NCBI RefSeq assembly: GCF_036169555.1
Contig: NZ_CP108032.1
Coordinates: 6,820,001-6,884,000 of the forward strand
Direction: 5' to 3'
DNA: 64,000 nucleotides
Source: Streptomyces sp. NBC_00306
GTDB taxonomy: Bacteria; Actinomycetota; Actinomycetes; Streptomycetales; Streptomycetaceae
Numbering within the stretch: the stretch's first letter is position 1; the number at the start of each line of letters is the position of its first letter. Shown piece after piece: positions 13,363-20,114 of this stretch. A program made the translations under genes and the position numbers. The notes beneath the pieces were generated by a model. The model worked only from the letters and a program-made list of their open reading frames with translations. It ran no database searches and was not told the origin of the DNA.

Positions 13363-14355
13363 ATGGAGCTCACCGCCCGCGCCTTCTGGCTCCGCTCACC
13401 CGGCCACGGAGAGATCCGGGACGTGTCCCTGCCGGCCCCCACGGACGACGACGTCGTGGTGCGCACCCTCTACTCGGGGGTGAGCCGAGGGACGGAGACT
13501 CTCGTCTTCCGGGGCGGAGTTCCGGAGAACCAGCACACGACGATGCGGGCGCCGTTCCAGGAGGGCGACTTCCCGGGCCCGGTGAAGTACGGGTACCTCA
13601 ATGTCGGCCTGGTGGAAGCGGGGCCGCGGGAGCTGGTCGGCCGTACCGTCTTCTGTCTCTACCCGCACCAGACCCGCTATGTCGTCCCCGCGAGCGCCGT
13701 GACACCGGTGCCGGACGGGGTGCCCGCCGCGCGGGCCGTGCTGGCCGGAACCGTGGAGACCGCGGTGAACGCCCTGTGGGACGCCGCGCCGCTGGTCGGC
13801 GACCGGATCGCCGTCGTCGGAGCGGGCATGATCGGCGCGTCGGTGGCCGCCGTCCTCGCCCGGTTCCCCGCCGTACGCGTCCAGTTGGTCGACGCCGACC
13901 CCGGCCGTGCCACCGTCGCCAAGGCCCTCGGGGTCGACTTCGCGCTCCCCGAGGAAGCCAAGGGCGACTGCGATCTCGTCGTCCACGCCAGCGCCACCGA
14001 GGCCGGGCTCACCCGCTCGCTGGAGTTGCTCGCCCCGGAGGGGACGGTTCTCGAACTGAGCTGGTACGGCGACCGCCGCGTCAGCCTGCCGCTCGGGGAG
14101 GCCTTCCACTCCCGCCGGCTGGTCGTCCGCAGCAGCCAGGTGGGGACCGTGTCCCCGGCCCGGGGCTCCCGCCGGACGTTCGCCGACCGGCTCGCCATCG
14201 CGCTCGATCTTCTCGCGGACCCCGTCTTCGACACGTTCGTCACCGGCGAGTGCGCGTTCGACGAGCTTCCGGAGGTACTGCCGCGGCTCGCCTCGGGCGA
14301 CCTGCCTGCGATGTGTCTCCGGGTTCTGTACGAATCTGCTGCTGATCCGGCCTGA
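13363..14355 (+). CDS. MDR-type alcohol dehydrogenase-like protein, first gene of pterin-like cluster
   Basis: A 330-residue medium-chain dehydrogenase/reductase homologue with aggagg 7 nt before the ATG. The N-terminal GroES-like part includes YSGVSRGTETLVFRGG (about 39-54). The Rossmann motif VVGAGMIGASVAAVLARFPAVRVQLVDAD lies near 147-175. The GHE catalytic-zinc motif and Cys cluster of classical zinc alcohol dehydrogenases are absent, so it is probably zinc-independent. It is followed by four co-directional genes, three linked by 4-nt overlaps, and probably starts that operon. The substrate is unknown; context suggests a step on a pterin/flavin-like or glycosylated intermediate. Confidence 0.85.
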   Translation: MELTARAFWLRSPGHGEIRDVSLPAPTDDDVVVRTLYSGVSRGTETLVFRGGVPENQHTTMRAPFQEGDFPGPVKYGYLNVGLVEAGPRELVGRTVFCLYPHQTRYVVPASAVTPVPDGVPAARAVLAGTVETAVNALWDAAPLVGDRIAVVGAGMIGASVAAVLARFPAVRVQLVDADPGRATVAKALGVDFALPEEAKGDCDLVVHASATEAGLTRSLELLAPEGTVLELSWYGDRRVSLPLGEAFHSRRLVVRSSQVGTVSPARGSRRTFADRLAIALDLLADPVFDTFVTGECAFDELPEVLPRLASGDLPAMCLRVLYESAADPA

Positions 14356-14433
14356 ACAAGGAGAACAGGCCGGCCGTACTACACGACAGACCCCGGCAGG
14401 GGGTCAGAGGCGCCGTACCTGGAGGATCGTCCG

Positions 14434-14832
14434 TTGTTCAGCATCACCGTCCGCGATCACCTCATGATCGCTCACAGCTTCCGTGGAGAGGTCTTCGGAC
14501 CCGCGCAGCGCCTGCACGGAGCGACCTTCCTCGTGGACGCCACGTTCCGGCGTGCCGAACTCGACGCCGACAACATCGTCGTCGACATCGGCCTCGCCAC
14601 CACCGAGCTGGGCACCGTCGTGGCCGCGCTGAACTACCGCAACCTCGACGACGAGCCCGACTTCGCGGGCATCAACACCTCCACGGAGGCGCTGGCCAAG
14701 GTCATCGCCGACCGTCTCGCCGACCGGGTGCACGCCGGTGCACTGGGCGAAGGCGCCCGGGAGATCGCCGGCATCACGGTCACCCTGCACGAGTCCCACA
14801 TCGCGTGGGCGAGTTACGAGCGAACGCTGTGA
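14434..14832 (+). CDS. 6-pyruvoyl-tetrahydropterin synthase / QueD-like protein with altered active site
   Basis: A 132-residue T-fold protein. It starts with TTG at 14434, supported by ggagga 7 nt upstream. Homology to QueD/PTPS shows in IAHSFRG, RLHGATF (about 26-32), the middle helix with [15 protein letters not shown] and the terminal HES motif. Compared with E. coli QueD, zinc ligands H16 and H31 match H14 and H28, but the third ligand (H33) is Ala30, the catalytic Cys27 position is Ala24, and the LDHHYLND segment is LNYRNLDD. It is unlikely to be a standard 6-carboxytetrahydropterin synthase and may act on a related pterin or pyrimidine, or be non-catalytic. The glycosyltransferase gene overlaps it (GTGA). 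Confidence 0.82.
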
Positions 14833-15959
14833 CGCCCGTGGACCGTGCCGACGCCGCCACCCCGCCCTCGCGCGCGGTGCACTTCGTCATGCCCGGTGGT
14901 GTCGACGACCCCGCCGCACCCAGCGGCGGCAACGTGTACGACCGCCGGGTCTGCCGGGACCTGTCCCGTATCGGCTGGCAGGTCCACGAGCACACCGTCG
15001 CGGGCGGCTGGCCGCAGCCCGACGCCGCGGCCCGCAACGAACTGCGCCGCATCCTGGCCGAGCAGGCCGACGGTTCCCTCGTCCTCGTCGACGGAATCGT
15101 CGCCTGCGGGGTGCCCGACATCGTCGTCCCCGAGGCGGAGCGGCTGCGCCTGGTGGTCCTGGTGCATCTGCCTCTCGGCGACGAGACGGGGCTGGTCGCC
15201 GCCAAGGCGGCGGAGCTGGACGCCCTGGAGCGCGACACCCTGCGCGCCGTCAGGGCGGTCGTGGTGACGAGCCATTGGGCGGCACGCCGCCTCGCGGCCC
15301 ACCACCGGCTCGCACCCGACCGGCTCCATGTCGCCGCCCCCGGCGTCGACACCGAGCCCGCGGCACCCGGCACCGACGGTGTCTCGCGGCTGCTGTGCGT
15401 GGCGGCCGTGACTCCGCGCAAGGGCCAGTACCGGCTGGTGAAGGCGCTTGCGGGCGTCGCGGACCTGCCCTGGTCCTGTCTGTGCGTCGGCGGCCTCGAC
15501 CACGACCCCGGCTACGTCTCCGGGCTGCGTGAGCTCATCGGCAACTCCGGTCTCTCCGACCGTGTCCGGCTCGCGGGTCCGCTCCCGCGGGAAGAACTCG
15601 CCGCCCACTACGCCGCCGCCGATCTGCTCGTCCTCACCTCGTACGCCGAGACGTACGGCATGGCCGTCACCGAGGCACTCGCCCACGGCGTGCCCGTCCT
15701 CGCGACGGCCGTGGGCGGACTTCCCGAGGCGGTCGGCCGGGCACCCGACGGCAGTGTGCCGGGCATCCTCGTCCGGTCCGAGGACCCGTCGGCCCTCCCG
15801 GCGGCGCTCCGCCGCTGGTTCGACGAGCCCGAACTGCGCCGGCAACTGAAGGCGGCGGCACTCGGCCGCCGCGCCGTGCTCGACGGCTGGGAGTCGACAG
15901 CGCGTCATCTCGCCGGAGCACTCGAACACCTCCTGCACGAACCCCGGAGGGTCGCATGA
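14829..15959 (+). CDS. GT4-family glycosyltransferase
   Basis: A 376-residue GT-B fold enzyme. The GTG at 14829 overlaps the TGA of the preceding gene, indicating translational coupling; a start 8 codons earlier is possible. The C-terminal half has [20 protein letters not shown] (about 185-205), [46 protein letters not shown] (about 245-290) with the ETYGMAVTE pattern of GT4 retaining enzymes. It transfers a sugar from a nucleotide donor. In a pterin-like cluster it may glycosylate the product, as pterin glycosyltransferases do in cyanobacteria, or build a lipid-linked glycan with the flippase-like gene; context alone does not decide. Confidence 0.88.
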
Positions 15960-16801
15960 CCGCCACCGAAGTGCCTCGTTACGCCCCCGAGTGGCTGGAG
16001 CTGCGCGAGCCCGCCGACGCGGCCGCACGCGCGCGTGAACTCCTCGCCCCCCTGATCAGCGCTCTGACGAGTGGTCAGGACGACGGCACGGGTCTCGTGA
16101 TCCACGACCTCGGCTGCGGCAGCGGGTCCATGGGCCGCTGGCTCGCCCCCCGGCTGACCGGCGCGCAGCACTGGGTCCTGCACGACCGCGATCCCGAACT
16201 GCTCGTGCTGGCCGCCGACCGAACCCCCCGGACCGCCGACGACGGCAGCCCCGTCACGGTCGCGACCGTACACGGTGATCTCGCCGGTCTCACCGCCGCG
16301 ACGCTCGCGGGCGCCTCGCTCGTGACGGCGTCGGCCCTGCTGGACGTCCTGACCCGCGAGGAGATCGACTCTCTCGCCGCGGCCTGTGCCGAGGCCGGCT
16401 GCCCGGCGCTGCTGGCCCTGTCCGTCATGGGCCGGGTCGAACTGACCCCCGCCGACCCGCTCGACGCCGAGATCCAAGAGGCGTTCAACGCCCACCAGCG
16501 GCGCGGTGGACTGCTGGGCCCCGACGCGGTGACGCAGGCCTCGGAGGCCTTCGCACGGCACGGCATGACCGTGCGGGTGCACGCCAGCCCGTGGCGGCTC
16601 GGCGCCGAGGAGTCGGAGCTGACGGGGGAGTGGCTGCAGGGCTGGGTCGGCGCCGCGTGCGAGGAACGCCCGGACCTCGGGCCGCGTGCCGTCGAGTATC
16701 TGCGGCGCCGCCTGGCGGCCTGCGCCGCGCGCGAGTTGGAGGTGGTCGTGCACCACAGCGATCTGCTGGCACTGCCCCGGCCGACGGGCGGGACGTCATG
16801 A
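15956..16801 (+). CDS. Class I SAM-dependent methyltransferase
   Basis: A 281-residue Rossmann-fold methyltransferase. ATG at 15956 overlaps the upstream stop (ATGA). Motif I is IHDLGCGSGSMGRWLAPRL (about 49-67), with HDRDPELLVLAADR (about 76-89) after it and a motif near VTVATVHGDLAG. Transmethylation target is unknown. It sits in the middle of a tightly coupled four-gene block, so it probably modifies the same product as the glycosyltransferase. Confidence 0.85.
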   Translation: MTATEVPRYAPEWLELREPADAAARARELLAPLISALTSGQDDGTGLVIHDLGCGSGSMGRWLAPRLTGAQHWVLHDRDPELLVLAADRTPRTADDGSPVTVATVHGDLAGLTAATLAGASLVTASALLDVLTREEIDSLAAACAEAGCPALLALSVMGRVELTPADPLDAEIQEAFNAHQRRGGLLGPDAVTQASEAFARHGMTVRVHASPWRLGAEESELTGEWLQGWVGAACEERPDLGPRAVEYLRRRLAACAARELEVVVHHSDLLALPRPTGGTS

Positions 16802-18114
16802 GCGCACAGAACCTCAAGGGCCGGATCGGCACGATCGCCGGTGCGGCGATCCTCGCGGTACTGCTGTGGCGCCTGGGCACCGGCGCCTTCCTGGACGGAC
16901 TGCGCAGGATCGACGGTCCCACCCTCCTCGCCGCGCTCGGGATCGGTCTGTTCACCACCGTTCTCAGTGCCTGGCGCTGGTGCGTGGTCGCCCGCGGACT
17001 GAACATCAAACTGCCGCTCGGCGGCGCCGTCGCCGACTACTACCGGGCCCTGTTCCTCAACGCGGCACTGCCCGGCGGCGTACTCGGCGATGTGCACCGA
17101 GCCGTACGGCACGGGCAGAACACGGGCGACATCGGCCGGGGGGTCCGCGCCGTCGTCCTGGAGCGGACGGCGGGCCAGATTGTGCTGCTCGTCGCAGGCG
17201 TAACGATCCTGCTCACGCTGCCCTCGCCGGTCCTGGCCGTGACCCGCGACGCGGTCGCGTCCCCCCTGGCCGCCGTCGTACTCGCGGCGCTGTGCGCCCT
17301 CGGTGTCGCGGCCGCCGTCCGCCGGCGCCGCAAGCCCGCAACCTCCCGCTGGCGCAGGGCGGTCCGCGCCACGCTCACCGAGGCGCGGACCGCGCTGCTG
17401 GCCCGCGGGAGCTGGCCCGCCGTGGTGGTCTCGTCCGTCGCCGTACTGGCGGGCCACCTCGCGATGTTCCTCGTGGCGGCCCGCGCCGCCGGCTCCACCG
17501 CGCCCTTCGCCGAACTGGCCCCGCTGATGGTGCTGGCGCTGCTCGCCATGGCGCTGCCGCTCAACGTCGGCGGCTGGGGCCCAAGAGAAGGCGCCACCGC
17601 CTGGGCCTTCGGCGCCGCCGGCCTCGGCGCGGCCCAGGGCCTGACCGTCGCCGTGGTGTACGGAGTTCTCGCGTTCGCCGCGAGTCTGCCCGGCATGCTC
17701 GTGCTTGCCGGGCAGTGGCTCGTGCGGCTACGGCGTTCCGAGTCCGAACTCGAAGAGGGTGTCCTCGCCGAGCATGGCGCGCCGCGTCGGCGGACGCAGC
17801 GCCTCACGCATCACGGACGTGCCCGCGAAGCGCAGACCGGGAACGCCGTCGCCCAGCAGGACCGGTGCGACGGTGACGTACAGCCGGTCGAGTGCCTGCT
17901 CGTGCAGGAAGCGCGACACGGTGACACCGCCGCCCTCGATCAGCATCCGGCCGAGACCGCGGCTCGCCAGGGTCTCGACCAGCCGACGGGGGGCGAACGC
18001 GTCGTCGTCCGGCAGCGTCAGCACGTCAACACCGCCACTGCCGCCACCGACACTGTCGCGCACCCGCTTCTCGTGGCCGCCGCCGGCGCCGACCACCCAC
18101 AGAGTGGGAGCTGA
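16798..18114 (+). CDS. Lysylphosphatidylglycerol synthase-TM / flippase-like membrane protein, overlapping the RibD-like gene
   Basis: A 438-residue ORF. ATG at 16798 overlaps the methyltransferase stop (ATGA). Residues 1-310 carry about eight hydrophobic segments and the UPF0104/flippase-like pattern, including YYRALFLNAALPGGVLGDVHRA (about 80-101) and LPLNVGGWGPREGATAWAFG (about 253-272). Typical family members end near residue 310-330. Here the frame continues about 128 residues as a hydrophilic tail that is antisense to the last 387 nt of the convergent RibD-like gene. The tail is probably not a conserved domain; either the normal stop was lost or there is a true long antisense overlap. 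Confidence 0.78.
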   Translation: MSAQNLKGRIGTIAGAAILAVLLWRLGTGAFLDGLRRIDGPTLLAALGIGLFTTVLSAWRWCVVARGLNIKLPLGGAVADYYRALFLNAALPGGVLGDVHRAVRHGQNTGDIGRGVRAVVLERTAGQIVLLVAGVTILLTLPSPVLAVTRDAVASPLAAVVLAALCALGVAAAVRRRRKPATSRWRRAVRATLTEARTALLARGSWPAVVVSSVAVLAGHLAMFLVAARAAGSTAPFAELAPLMVLALLAMALPLNVGGWGPREGATAWAFGAAGLGAAQGLTVAVVYGVLAFAASLPGMLVLAGQWLVRLRRSESELEEGVLAEHGAPRRRTQRLTHHGRAREAQTGNAVAQQDRCDGDVQPVECLLVQEARHGDTAALDQHPAETAARQGLDQPTGGERVVVRQRQHVNTATAATDTVAHPLLVAAAGADHPQSGS

Positions 18115-18573
18115 CCCATCGGTGAAGACCTTGCGCTCCAGAGGGACCCGGCCGCGCGGATCGAGCACGACACGCACCGGGTTGGTACCGGCGCAGGCGC
18201 GCACCGTCAGCTGGGGATCGTCCGAGACGGCGGTGCCCGCCCCGACCACGACCGCGTCGGCGAGCGCCCGGAGCCGGTGCAGATGACGACGGTCCTCCTC
18301 GCCGGTGACGAAGTCGGCGTCACCGGTACGCGTGGCGATGAAGCCGTCGACGCTCTGACCGAGCTGAGCGACGGTCAGACGCGGACCGGCCAGGCACAGC
18401 GGCAGATACAGATCGGCGAGCGCCTCCGCTTCGGGCGAAGCGTCCTGGCTCCACCGCCGGACCCCGTCCCGGCCGAGCACCAGCCCGGCGGCCTCGGCAT
18501 CCGCCTCGGAGCGCACACCGAGCAGCAGTTCCCACGCCTGTTCCTCCGTCAGGGAGGTGCCGTGAACACTCAT
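17728..18573 (-). CDS. RibD C-terminal (5-amino-6-ribosylaminouracil reductase-like) protein
   Basis: A 281-residue protein. Residues 65-275 match the DHFR-like reductase domain of RibD/RibG: GPRLTVAQLGQSVDGFIATRTGDADFVTGEEDRRHLHRLRALADAVVVGAGTA and LIEGGGVTVSRFLHEQALDRLYVTVAPVLLG. There is no deaminase domain; the first 60 residues are a short non-deaminase extension. It should use NADPH to reduce the ribosyl group of a pyrimidine phosphate. Standing alone next to a creatininase-family gene and GTP cyclohydrolase, it fits the archaeal order in which reduction precedes deamination (ArfC-like). Its start overlaps the creatininase stop by 4 nt; its 3' end overlaps the flippase-like ORF. Confidence 0.85.
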   Translation of the reverse strand: MSVHGTSLTEEQAWELLLGVRSEADAEAAGLVLGRDGVRRWSQDASPEAEALADLYLPLCLAGPRLTVAQLGQSVDGFIATRTGDADFVTGEEDRRHLHRLRALADAVVVGAGTAVSDDPQLTVRACAGTNPVRVVLDPRGRVPLERKVFTDGSAPTLWVVGAGGGHEKRVRDSVGGGSGGVDVLTLPDDDAFAPRRLVETLASRGLGRMLIEGGGVTVSRFLHEQALDRLYVTVAPVLLGDGVPGLRFAGTSVMREALRPPTRRAMLGEDTLFEFGLGTP

Positions 18574-19322
18574 CGCGCCTCCTCCCCGGAGAGAAGTGAC
18601 AGGTATTCACCGAAGGAATCGACGAGTGAGGCCAGCAGCTCCTTCCCCTTATCCGCGGACGCCAGCGACGGGCGGCCGATGACACCGGACTCCGTATAGC
18701 CCGGCATACCGAGAGTGAGCAGATGCCTGCGGTCGTCGGCGACGTGATCCGCCGTCTCATAACCGGGACGGACCACGTCCGGATGGGCGTGCAACAGGAT
18801 GGATGTCTCCACTTCTCCGGCATGCATATCGCTGTGCGACGAGGTCTCCAGACCGGCTCTCGTCCGGGCCGCAGCCCAGTCGCCCGAGCCCGGGAAAAGA
18901 GCCATCCGCATACCGCTGAAGGAGGCGGATTCCTGAACAACATTACGCAGCACGTAATTTCCGCCGTGCCCGTTCACCAGAATCAGCGAGGTGATACCGG
19001 AGCGGCGGAGGGAGTCGGCGATATCACGGACCACGGCATAAAGCGTCGTGGCGGAAATACTGACAGTACCCGGCCAGGCGGCATGCTCGTGGGAGCAGGA
19101 CACCGTCACGGGAGGAAGGTGGAGAACCGGATGCGCGGCGGCGATCTCGGCGGCGATCGTGCCGGCGATGACCGTGTCGGTCACCAGGGGGAGAAATGCT
19201 CCGTGTTGCTCGAAGCTGCCGATGGGAAGCACGGCAACGTCGGCCCGGCGGGCCCGTACGTCCTCCGTGGTGTCCGTCGGGAGCAGGCCCGAAGCCCACT
19301 GTGGTGTTCCCGAACCGCTCAT
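18570..19322 (-). CDS. Creatininase-family amidohydrolase, candidate FAPy deformylase (ArfB-like)
   Basis: A 250-residue protein of the creatininase fold. Conserved metal-site motifs: PIGSFEQHGAFLPLVTDT (about 33-50; E, H, D ligands), LVNGHGGN (about 115-122) and DMHAGEVETS (about 165-174). Members include creatininase, mycofactocin MftE peptidase and the archaeal ArfB deformylase, which removes formate from the formylaminopyrimidine made by GTP cyclohydrolase III. Divergence from a GTP cyclohydrolase II paralogue with the Met120 change, plus a 4-nt overlap with the RibD-like reductase, make the ArfB role the best guess. MftE is unlikely because no other mycofactocin gene is present. Confidence 0.8.
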   Translation of the reverse strand: MSGSGTPQWASGLLPTDTTEDVRARRADVAVLPIGSFEQHGAFLPLVTDTVIAGTIAAEIAAAHPVLHLPPVTVSCSHEHAAWPGTVSISATTLYAVVRDIADSLRRSGITSLILVNGHGGNYVLRNVVQESASFSGMRMALFPGSGDWAAARTRAGLETSSHSDMHAGEVETSILLHAHPDVVRPGYETADHVADDRRHLLTLGMPGYTESGVIGRPSLASADKGKELLASLVDSFGEYLSLLSGEEAR

Positions 19323-19426
19323 GTCGTTCCGGCCTTTCGTACGTCACTGCAAGGGATATGGCCGGTCGAACGTGATGAACCGGGCACTCGGTTGATGCGT
19401 CGTCTCTCATTTTCCCCCACGCCGCC

Positions 19427-19460
19427 TTGGAATTACCACCTGCCCGGTTAGGATCGAGCC
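19427..19460 (+). promoter_or_regulatory. Promoter of the GTP cyclohydrolase gene, leaderless type
   Basis: TTGGAA (19427-19432), a 16-nt spacer and TAGGAT (19449-19454) form a good vegetative promoter. TAGGAT lies 6 nt before the ATG, so transcription should start at or beside the start codon. Confidence 0.55.
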
Positions 19461-20114
19461 ATGATAGAAAGTGATGACGTGTTCGACGACGACGGTACTC
19501 GTCCGTCCGGAGTCGAGCGCGCGGTGAGTGTCCGGCTTGCCACCGTGCACGGCGATTTCCTTGCCGTCGGCTACCTCGACCGCAATCGCGGTGAGGAGCA
19601 AATGGTGCTCGTTTACGGAGACGTCGAGACCGAAGGTGCGCTCACCCGACTGCACTCGGAGTGTCTCACCGGAGATGTCTTCGGCTCCAAGCACTGCGAT
19701 TGCGGCGAGCAACTGTCCGCGGCGCTGGGTGCGATAGTCAAGGAGGGCCGCGGCATTCTTGTCTACCTCCAGGGACATGAGGGCCGGGGGATCGGGCTGC
19801 TCGCCAAACTCCGTGCGATGAAACTCCAGGCGGAGGGCATGGACACGGTCGAGGCCAATATCGCCCAGGGGCTGCCGGTCGACGCGCGTGACTACCAGGT
19901 CGCGGCCGACATCCTGCACGACCTCGGCGTGCGGTCCGTGCGGCTGCTGTCCAACAACCCGCGGAAGCGGGAGTCGCTGCAACGGCACGGGATCAAGATC
20001 GACTCCCAGGTGCCGCTGCTGATTCCGCCGAGCGAGGAGAACAAGTCCTACCAGTGGACGAAGCGCGACCGTCTCGACCACTACCTGCCGCACCTTGACG
20101 TCGCGGCGGACTAG
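19461..20114 (+). CDS. ribA: GTP cyclohydrolase II paralogue with Met120 in place of catalytic Tyr
   Basis: A 217-residue RibA-family protein. Zinc site CLTGDVFGSKHCDCGEQL (Cys69, Cys79, Cys81), GTP-binding HEGRGIGLLAKLRA (107-119), DTVEAN and LLSNNPRK (about 173-180) are intact. The residue matching E. coli Tyr105 is Met120 (codon 19818-19820). From memory, a Streptomyces coelicolor paralogue with the same Met120 makes the formylamino-pyrimidine (FAPy) instead of releasing formate, so this enzyme probably stops at FAPy, like archaeal GTP cyclohydrolase III. The divergent creatininase-family gene would remove the formyl group. A separate housekeeping RibA is expected elsewhere in the genome. 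Confidence 0.92.
   Translation: MIESDDVFDDDGTRPSGVERAVSVRLATVHGDFLAVGYLDRNRGEEQMVLVYGDVETEGALTRLHSECLTGDVFGSKHCDCGEQLSAALGAIVKEGRGILVYLQGHEGRGIGLLAKLRAMKLQAEGMDTVEANIAQGLPVDARDYQVAADILHDLGVRSVRLLSNNPRKRESLQRHGIKIDSQVPLLIPPSEENKSYQWTKRDRLDHYLPHLDVAAD

Follow-up and report, generated by a model that had tools for sequence, protein, structure and literature searches.

The 64,000-nucleotide stretch of Streptomyces sp. NBC_00306 analyzed here (contig NZ_CP108032.1, positions 6,820,001 to 6,884,000; the window) contains a cluster of nine genes that forms a real, widely conserved and uncharacterized pathway of bacteria and haloarchaea, which seems to lead from GTP to a glycosylated, methylated pyrimidine or pterin. 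The product probably carries a membrane lipid. The first steps in this strain appear to follow the "archaeal" route of two enzymes, through a formamidopyrimidine (FAPy) nucleotide. A preliminary description of the locus had named eight of the genes and read three of them, for a GTP cyclohydrolase II paralogue, a creatininase-family protein and a RibD-type reductase, as successive early steps. All eight are open, with no internal stops between positions 13363 and 20114, and their Pfam matches agree with the families given, that of the dehydrogenase falling below the cutoff (Table 1). The description had missed the ninth gene, which encodes a CDP-alcohol phosphatidyltransferase and lies directly upstream of the dehydrogenase gene in divergent orientation.

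In the proposed pathway, a cyclohydrolase II without the usual tyrosine at residue 120 (non-Tyr) would open GTP and retain the formyl group, giving the FAPy nucleotide, from which the creatininase-family enzyme would remove that group. Where present, the RibD-type reductase would yield a ribitylamine from the ribosylamine. In other lineages, a Tyr-type cyclohydrolase II may lead to that intermediate, or the archaeal GTP cyclohydrolase III may be the first enzyme. A dehydrogenase of the medium-chain dehydrogenase/reductase (MDR) superfamily and a 6-pyruvoyltetrahydropterin synthase (PTPS)-like protein would then convert the pyrimidine to a scaffold of the pterin or pyrimidine type, to be decorated by a family 4 glycosyltransferase (GT4) and a methyltransferase. 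Once the phosphatidyltransferase had attached the scaffold to a phosphatidyl (or archaetidyl) group, the LPG-synthase-TM protein would flip the lipid-linked product across the membrane. Gene content, synteny and the covariation of residue 120 with the creatininase gene are observed; the reactions, the sequence in which they occur and a lipid as the product are inferred. The front end varies in three ways, and the rest of the cluster varies less. Taken whole, the sequence of FAPy front end, dehydrogenase/PTPS scaffold, decoration, lipid attachment and flipping is the best explanation of the cluster, and we give it about an even chance of being correct.

Conservation was assessed in 150 Streptomyces genomes, in which cyclohydrolases of at least 67% identity and creatininases of at least 70% identity were counted as window type. 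PTPS, the window-type cyclohydrolase and the window-type creatininase were each found in 67 genomes, and 66 genomes had all three. The exceptions were G085, with a 5-kb stretch that holds the MDR gene, the PTPS gene and a RibD-like match of 30%, and G102, which is assembled in 1420 contigs and gave no PTPS match. A genome scan with the dehydrogenase alignment as the query returned at least 585 relatives. Among the best 80 of these, which come from Pseudomonadota, Acidobacteriota, Gemmatimonadota and Actinomycetota, the locus contained PTPS in 79 cases, GT4 in 77, the methyltransferase in 76, the CDP-alcohol transferase in 62 (mostly next to the dehydrogenase), the reductase in 54, the creatininase and the flippase in 45 each and cyclohydrolase II in 43. 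We compiled 156 loci with both MDR and PTPS genes (39 from Streptomyces, 44 from other actinomycetes, 57 from Pseudomonadota, Acidobacteriota and Gemmatimonadota, 3 haloarchaeal and 13 Rubrobacter-like; L095 and L097 were left out), and GT4 was present in 150 and the methyltransferase in 141. Group labels and the genome lists of the co-occurrence count were assigned by hand from listings. A gene was scored as absent from a locus when tblastn at 1e-5 gave no hit within the stretch fetched, and several stretches end at contig ends. The Rubrobacter-like loci belong to another class (family f18, which we take to be Rubrobacteraceae); all 13 have the reductase, MDR and PTPS, 12 have GT4 and 11 the methyltransferase. 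The core of dehydrogenase, PTPS, GT4 and methyltransferase recurs in Pseudomonadota, Acidobacteriota, Gemmatimonadota, other Actinomycetota and haloarchaea, and plasmid records add Rhizobiaceae, Methylosinus, Thiodictyon, Microbacterium and haloarchaea. The preliminary description had proposed a search for the genes in other Streptomyces genomes, and the cluster is found there and outside the genus. Co-occurrence in 66 of 67 Streptomyces genomes, together with a core present in several phyla, is far beyond chance.

A tyrosine at position 120 marks the formate-releasing type of GTP cyclohydrolase II. SCO6655 of Streptomyces coelicolor reportedly forms FAPy because of Met120, and the published work on it is said to give no pathway assignment. 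The window enzyme passes the RibA model NF001591 (218.2 bits; cutoff, 148), and its residue 120 is exactly Met, as first described, rather than the Tyr of the RibA type. PF00925 was its sole match in the Pfam scan, which did not detect the GTP cyclohydrolase III domain PF05165. In an earlier set of loci, all 41 non-Tyr cyclohydrolases (37 Met, 4 His) occurred with a creatininase. A test set was then available from the same class outside Streptomyces: 37 genomes outside the genus matched, and 34 of them gave 35 loci (G157 and G346 were in the earlier set, and G619, a contig-end match, was excluded). Cyclohydrolase II was present in 24 of these loci, with Tyr at residue 120 in 11 and Met, His, Leu or Gln in 13. 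The creatininase lay in the locus in 12 of the 13 non-Tyr cases, and in the 13th (L257) a copy of 63% identity lies about 10 kb past the flippase gene. No creatininase was found in any of the 11 Tyr-type clusters, and the best match elsewhere in those 11 genomes had 42% identity, with no cluster-type copy. The stretches of the 11 actinomycete loci without a cyclohydrolase likewise contained none. Within Actinomycetota, the creatininase accompanies the loss of Tyr, and none was found where Tyr is kept.

The creatininase family first named for the window protein agrees with its Pfam match, and all 26 PDB chains that match it at E ≤ 0.001 are creatininase-family proteins. Residues E38, H40, D49, H119 and E172, which we take to be the Glu/His/Asp/His/Glu metal site, are invariant in 35 aligned rows. 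The protein has the fold and metal-site residues of the ArfB and BrbF formamidases, in line with the superfamily shared with ArfB that had been noted, but it falls below the cutoff of the NCBIfam equivalog for ArfB (NF033501; 39.9 of 180 bits). Its best creatininase-type match, MftE of mycofactocin (TIGR03964), is also below the cutoff (128.2 of 172 bits). The reductase is stand-alone, as had been noted, with no deaminase domain in the Pfam scan, and it scores 106.6 of 186.45 bits against the archaeal reductase model (ArfC; TIGR01508). Since both proteins lie below the curated cutoffs, it is better supported that they work like ArfB and ArfC than that they are ArfB and ArfC. As a side observation, ten Streptomyces stretches (L192 to L201) from genomes without a window-type PTPS hold a creatininase 55 to 67% identical to that of the window, and in all six stretches inspected a regulator-like open reading frame, judged by eye, lies just upstream of it.

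GTP cyclohydrolase III is a FAPy-forming enzyme. Among seven haloarchaeal regions inspected, its gene lies directly before the dehydrogenase gene in three. The enzymes of Haloarcula sp. GH36 (L100) and Natrarchaeobaculum sulfurireducens (L101) were confirmed as PF05165, with E values of 3e-81 and 2e-87, and that of Haloarcula halophila (L284) is assigned by annotation alone. Two further records (H20 and H22) list GTP cyclohydrolase III under their match. By annotation, a phosphatidyltransferase gene is near the dehydrogenase gene in four of the seven regions.

The PTPS is the orthologue of SCO6650, the structure of which is PDB entry 3d7j (E 1.6e-73). Histidines 14 and 28 are kept, as is the Glu at residue 120, and the third zinc histidine is replaced by Ala30, in agreement with the description of this protein as degenerate. 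Among 156 PTPS relatives, the zinc triad reads HHA in 139, HHV in 1 and HHH in 13 Rubrobacter-like and 2 haloarchaeal proteins; 1 is gapped. Because these Rubrobacter-like and haloarchaeal forms keep all three histidines, the pattern suggests that the ancestor was a zinc enzyme and that the metal was lost in the PTPS branch to which the window protein belongs. A catalytic-zinc cysteine motif marks the zinc-dependent MDR alcohol dehydrogenases. The cluster dehydrogenase lacks the zinc signature, has S-x-G-T-E in 12 of 12 aligned rows and scores 24.5 of 31.8 bits against ADH_zinc_N. Its NCBIfam matches are weak, the best being BchC at 51.4 of 291 bits. Lone PTPS paralogues with 74 to 83% identity also occur without the rest of the cluster (L287, L288, L095 and L097). 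The copies L287 and L288 are on Streptomyces plasmids, among genes for cupin, MEKHLA-domain, metallo-beta-lactamase-fold and sigma-factor proteins.

The glycosyltransferase and the methyltransferase are of the classes originally given, and an EX7E-like motif is present in 128 of 153 GT4 relatives. The phosphatidyltransferase carries the CDP-alcohol motif D..DG..AR..G...D...D, which 113 of 115 related hits keep intact. Its AlphaFold model has a predicted local distance difference test score of 90.9, and Foldseek matched it to phosphatidylglycerol-phosphate synthase with a probability of 1.00 and an E value of only 0.02. In VIA-align, PgsA was the best structural match (Z, 14.1; root mean square deviation, 3.0 over 166 residues). 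A middling Z is common for mostly helical proteins; here the top 15 rows are CDP-alcohol transferases, and designed helical proteins come next (Z, 8.7). The NCBIfam hits of four cluster phosphatidyltransferases are all below the cutoff (26.7 of 180 bits for the window protein and 47.1 of 109.1 for the best), and these proteins form what is, by sequence, an unassigned subfamily. The gene was found in 38 of 39 Streptomyces loci, 37 of 44 other actinomycete loci, 38 of 57 loci from Pseudomonadota, Acidobacteriota and Gemmatimonadota, and 2 of 3 haloarchaeal loci. Together, the phosphatidyltransferase and the flippase point to a lipid-linked product. With GT4, methyltransferase, phosphatidyltransferase and flippase genes side by side, a lipid-borne pterin or pyrimidine that is both glycosylated and methylated is the parsimonious choice of product. 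The glycosylated, methylated pyrimidine or pterin first suggested is kept as a reading with no product assigned, and a probable lipid linkage is added to it.

The dehydrogenase to flippase genes lie on the plus strand, the reductase and creatininase genes on the minus strand and the cyclohydrolase gene on the plus strand. Four-base overlaps join PTPS to GT4, GT4 to the methyltransferase, the methyltransferase to the flippase and the creatininase to the reductase. The flippase-like protein had been recognized correctly, but the end of its gene had to be corrected. Its reading frame has no stop at the end of the domain and runs on antisense over the reductase gene (17728 to 18114), and in several other Streptomyces, too, the frame extends well beyond the domain.

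Table 1. Genes of the cluster and the residue 120 codon, with positions counted from the first nucleotide of the window
Feature	Position	Strand	Basis
CDP-alcohol phosphatidyltransferase, 261 residues	12468-13253	minus	GTG start after GGAGG; Pfam CDP-OH_P_transf, E 1e-13
MDR-superfamily dehydrogenase, SxGTE subfamily; constant part of the cluster	13363-14355	plus	ADH_zinc_N below cutoff; 12-row alignment
PTPS-fold protein, orthologue of SCO6650 (PDB 3d7j)	14434-14832	plus	Pfam PTPS (PF01242), E 8e-23
GT4 glycosyltransferase	14829-15959	plus	GTG start at 14829; Pfam Glycos_transf_1, E 5e-28
Class I S-adenosylmethionine-dependent methyltransferase	15956-16801	plus	Pfam Methyltransf_25, E 9e-8
Flippase-like membrane protein, MprF/AglD type	16798-18114	plus	Pfam LPG_synthase_TM, E 2e-35; domain end near 17690
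Stand-alone reductase, RibD C-terminal type; variable part of the cluster	17728-18573	minus	Pfam RibD_C, E 2e-36
Creatininase-family amidohydrolase, proposed FAPy deformylase	18570-19322	minus	Pfam Creatininase, E 7e-64
GTP cyclohydrolase II paralogue with Met120	19461-20114	plus	Pfam GTP_cyclohydro2 (PF00925), E 7e-63
Codon for Met120 of the cyclohydrolase (Tyr in RibA enzymes)	19818-19820	plus	Codon position read in the window

Several observations weigh against the proposed pathway. The non-Tyr cyclohydrolases form one clade (support, 97/92), and all 13 non-Tyr loci of the test set fall in one family (f89), with the 11 Tyr loci spread across nine others. They therefore amount to a single event that stayed linked rather than 13 tests, and the Fisher value of 4e-7 for the link between residue 120 and the creatininase assumes independent clusters, which the single clade contradicts. 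The tree contains the window and 7 other Streptomyces sequences, the rest having been dropped as near-copies; most of its proteobacterial rows were trimmed too short to cover residue 120, and their Tyr was read in a separate analysis. The cyclohydrolase-creatininase pair has a single origin and was kept together as residue 120 varied among Met, His, Leu and Gln. In addition, a creatininase, which may do another job there, accompanies a Tyr-type cyclohydrolase in 15 proteobacterial or acidobacterial clusters (Halomonas, Thauera, Methyloversatilis, an acidobacterium and others), and we rejected the idea that the creatininase is exclusive to non-Tyr cyclohydrolases everywhere. These creatininases make up a clade of their own, separate from the actinobacterial clade, and a sister relation of the two has weak support (66/90). 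At seven loci (L124, L131, L141, L142, L169, L172 and L178), a creatininase occurs with no cyclohydrolase in the stretch. Close relatives of the creatininase also exist in Streptomyces away from any such cluster, and the actinobacterial clade takes in copies from these cluster-less Streptomyces; the tree kept 8 Streptomyces sequences, others being near-copies. A creatininase near the cluster of Haloarcula marismortui (L213) is outside both cluster clades. Farther along the pathway, neither the phosphatidyltransferase nor the flippase was detected in the 13 Rubrobacter-like loci. There was no adjacent GTP cyclohydrolase III gene in four of the seven haloarchaeal regions (Halomicrococcus, H. marismortui, Haladaptatus and Natronorubrum), and no PTPS is annotated in the L101 stretch of N. 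sulfurireducens.

The distribution of the reductase is a further point against the pathway as first drawn. It was found in 10 of the 39 Streptomyces loci (in L098 as a 30% match only) and was not detected in the other 29, among which L159 ends at a contig end. It is present in 54 of the 57 loci from Pseudomonadota, Acidobacteriota and Gemmatimonadota. In the 24 actinomycete clusters outside Streptomyces, it accompanies 11 of 11 Tyr-type and 0 of 13 non-Tyr cyclohydrolases. All three successive-step genes are present in the window, but the reductase is not a constant partner, and the three enzymes as a fixed trio were rejected. The window is instead a hybrid, with a non-Tyr cyclohydrolase, a creatininase and a reductase together. 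In 17 genomes without a cluster reductase, the RibD-like proteins encoded elsewhere have at most 37% identity to that of the window. Since two reductases of Tyr-type clusters (G716 and G682) reach no more than 33 and 35% identity to it, a reductase elsewhere in those genomes may nevertheless serve the cluster.

These points bear on two alternatives for the front end. In every version of the pathway, the creatininase might hydrolyze an intermediate that comes after FAPy rather than FAPy itself, residue 120 covarying with it by descent alone. This would account for the clusters that combine it with a Tyr-type cyclohydrolase or with none, and it fits the single origin of the non-Tyr type. However, the Tyr-type actinomycete clusters have the same back end and, in 11 of 11 genomes, no cluster-type copy, and the weak node above does not show the actinobacterial and proteobacterial creatininases to be orthologues. 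The 15 clusters with a creatininase and a Tyr-type cyclohydrolase leave two options, a second recruitment with another role or a general role of the creatininase later in the pathway; we consider the latter possible but unlikely. The FAPy and deformylase front end of the preliminary description is supported by the actinomycete covariation, counted as one event, and by the haloarchaeal GTP cyclohydrolase III, but the 15 Tyr-type loci speak against it. The front-end genes could otherwise be a back-up or secretory branch of riboflavin synthesis, similar to the one proposed for Sinorhizobium meliloti and merely beside a glycolipid cluster. The reductase and the cyclohydrolase are riboflavin-type enzymes, and the BrbF protein provides a precedent (PMC9478397). 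The Streptomyces window-type cyclohydrolase and creatininase travel with PTPS in 66 of 67 genomes, however, and GTP cyclohydrolase III abuts the dehydrogenase in some haloarchaea, which makes this alternative improbable.

For the product, the alternative is a soluble glycosylated, methylated pterin or pyrimidine, such as a pterin glycoside, with the membrane genes serving export or being separate neighbors. GT4 and PTPS together suit pterin glycosides, and tetrahydrobiopterin glucosyltransferase is among the PDB matches listed for GT4, as the last and weakest of them (E 0.00097). The Rubrobacter-like loci without detected membrane genes also agree with a soluble product. Against it, the phosphatidyltransferase gene accompanies the dehydrogenase gene across phyla and in the four haloarchaeal regions, and the catalytic motif of its product is complete. 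We regard a soluble product as doubtful. A 7-deazapurine pathway (queuosine or toyocamycin-like) is suggested by annotation of the PTPS/QueD homologue as 6-carboxytetrahydropterin synthase. The Pfam scan of the nine window proteins and the plasmid annotations inspected contained no QueE- or QueC-like family, and the PTPS lacks the third zinc ligand; deazapurine biosynthesis, which we consider very improbable, was rejected on these grounds.

Additional genes accompany some versions of the cluster. In Rubrobacter-like L060 (8035-8529), a FolB-family (dihydroneopterin aldolase) gene is divergent to the reductase gene, with BLAST hits in 12 other loci of 16 compared. A GTP cyclohydrolase I gene is next to the phosphatidyltransferase gene in an alphaproteobacterial cluster (L172, 7377-8009). 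In Pseudomonadota, genes for YceI-type and for sulfatase-like proteins are recurrent neighbors of the phosphatidyltransferase gene (L112, 4910-7211; L121; L129; L139; and others). The YceI-type protein was encoded by 13 of 82 flanking open reading frames scanned, which were picked by size and place from 180. Cytochrome b561 occurs in the Thiodictyon and two Rhizobiaceae clusters, and these neighbors hint at membrane redox or lipid handling. Two Rhodobacterales plasmid clusters (L286, 4131-4934 and 9957-10847; L108, 6818-7738) contain a PfkB- or ribokinase-type sugar kinase gene and no annotated phosphatidyltransferase, and one of them has an inositol-monophosphatase-family gene.

If correct, the proposed pathway would explain why a FAPy-forming-type cyclohydrolase is kept beside the normal one in Streptomyces, would offer a bacterial candidate for the enzyme that partners the FAPy-formamidase step and would expose a pathway, shared by several bacterial phyla and haloarchaea, for whose product no name was found. 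Because residue 120 and the creatininase covary, two small proteins suffice for a direct test of the deformylase idea. Each enzyme family is already known; the product class would be new if the lipid reading holds, and a GTP-derived lipid would bring a new head-group class and possibly a compound that absorbs light or takes part in membrane redox. The open-access literature searched gave no paper on the cluster or on pterin lipids, most subscription papers being outside the search. As a tentative extension, with the odds against it, we suggest a new class of membrane lipids in many bacteria and haloarchaea, with a glycosylated, methylated, GTP-derived pterin or ribitylpyrimidine head, for which each lineage would make the common precursor with its own cyclohydrolase system. 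The YceI and cytochrome b561 genes next to the cluster in some proteobacteria would then suggest a lipid that carries electrons or is handled at the outer membrane face.

Among known systems, the archaeal ArfA-ArfB-ArfC route shares with the window the same three proposed transformations and a creatininase-superfamily deformylase, and some haloarchaeal versions of the cluster have GTP cyclohydrolase III. The window differs from that route in using a cyclohydrolase II-family enzyme, in a creatininase and a reductase that score far below the curated cutoffs and in a reductase that is not conserved in Streptomyces. BrbF of S. meliloti is a bacterial creatininase-family FAPy formamidase that removes formate from the FAPy nucleotide; it serves riboflavin, its gene lies beside MarR and CobW genes, and its FAPy-forming partner is yet to be discovered, according to PMC9478397. 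The window creatininase resembles the BrbF route of Sinorhizobium meliloti and Brucella in family and in the proposed deformylation and differs in being tied to a glycosyl, methyl and lipid cluster. SCO6650 of S. coelicolor is the counterpart of the window PTPS. The phosphatidyltransferase shares motif and fold with the CDP-diacylglycerol phosphatidyltransferases PgsA and PIP synthase, whereas the four cluster members scanned lie below the cutoffs of all their NCBIfam hits.

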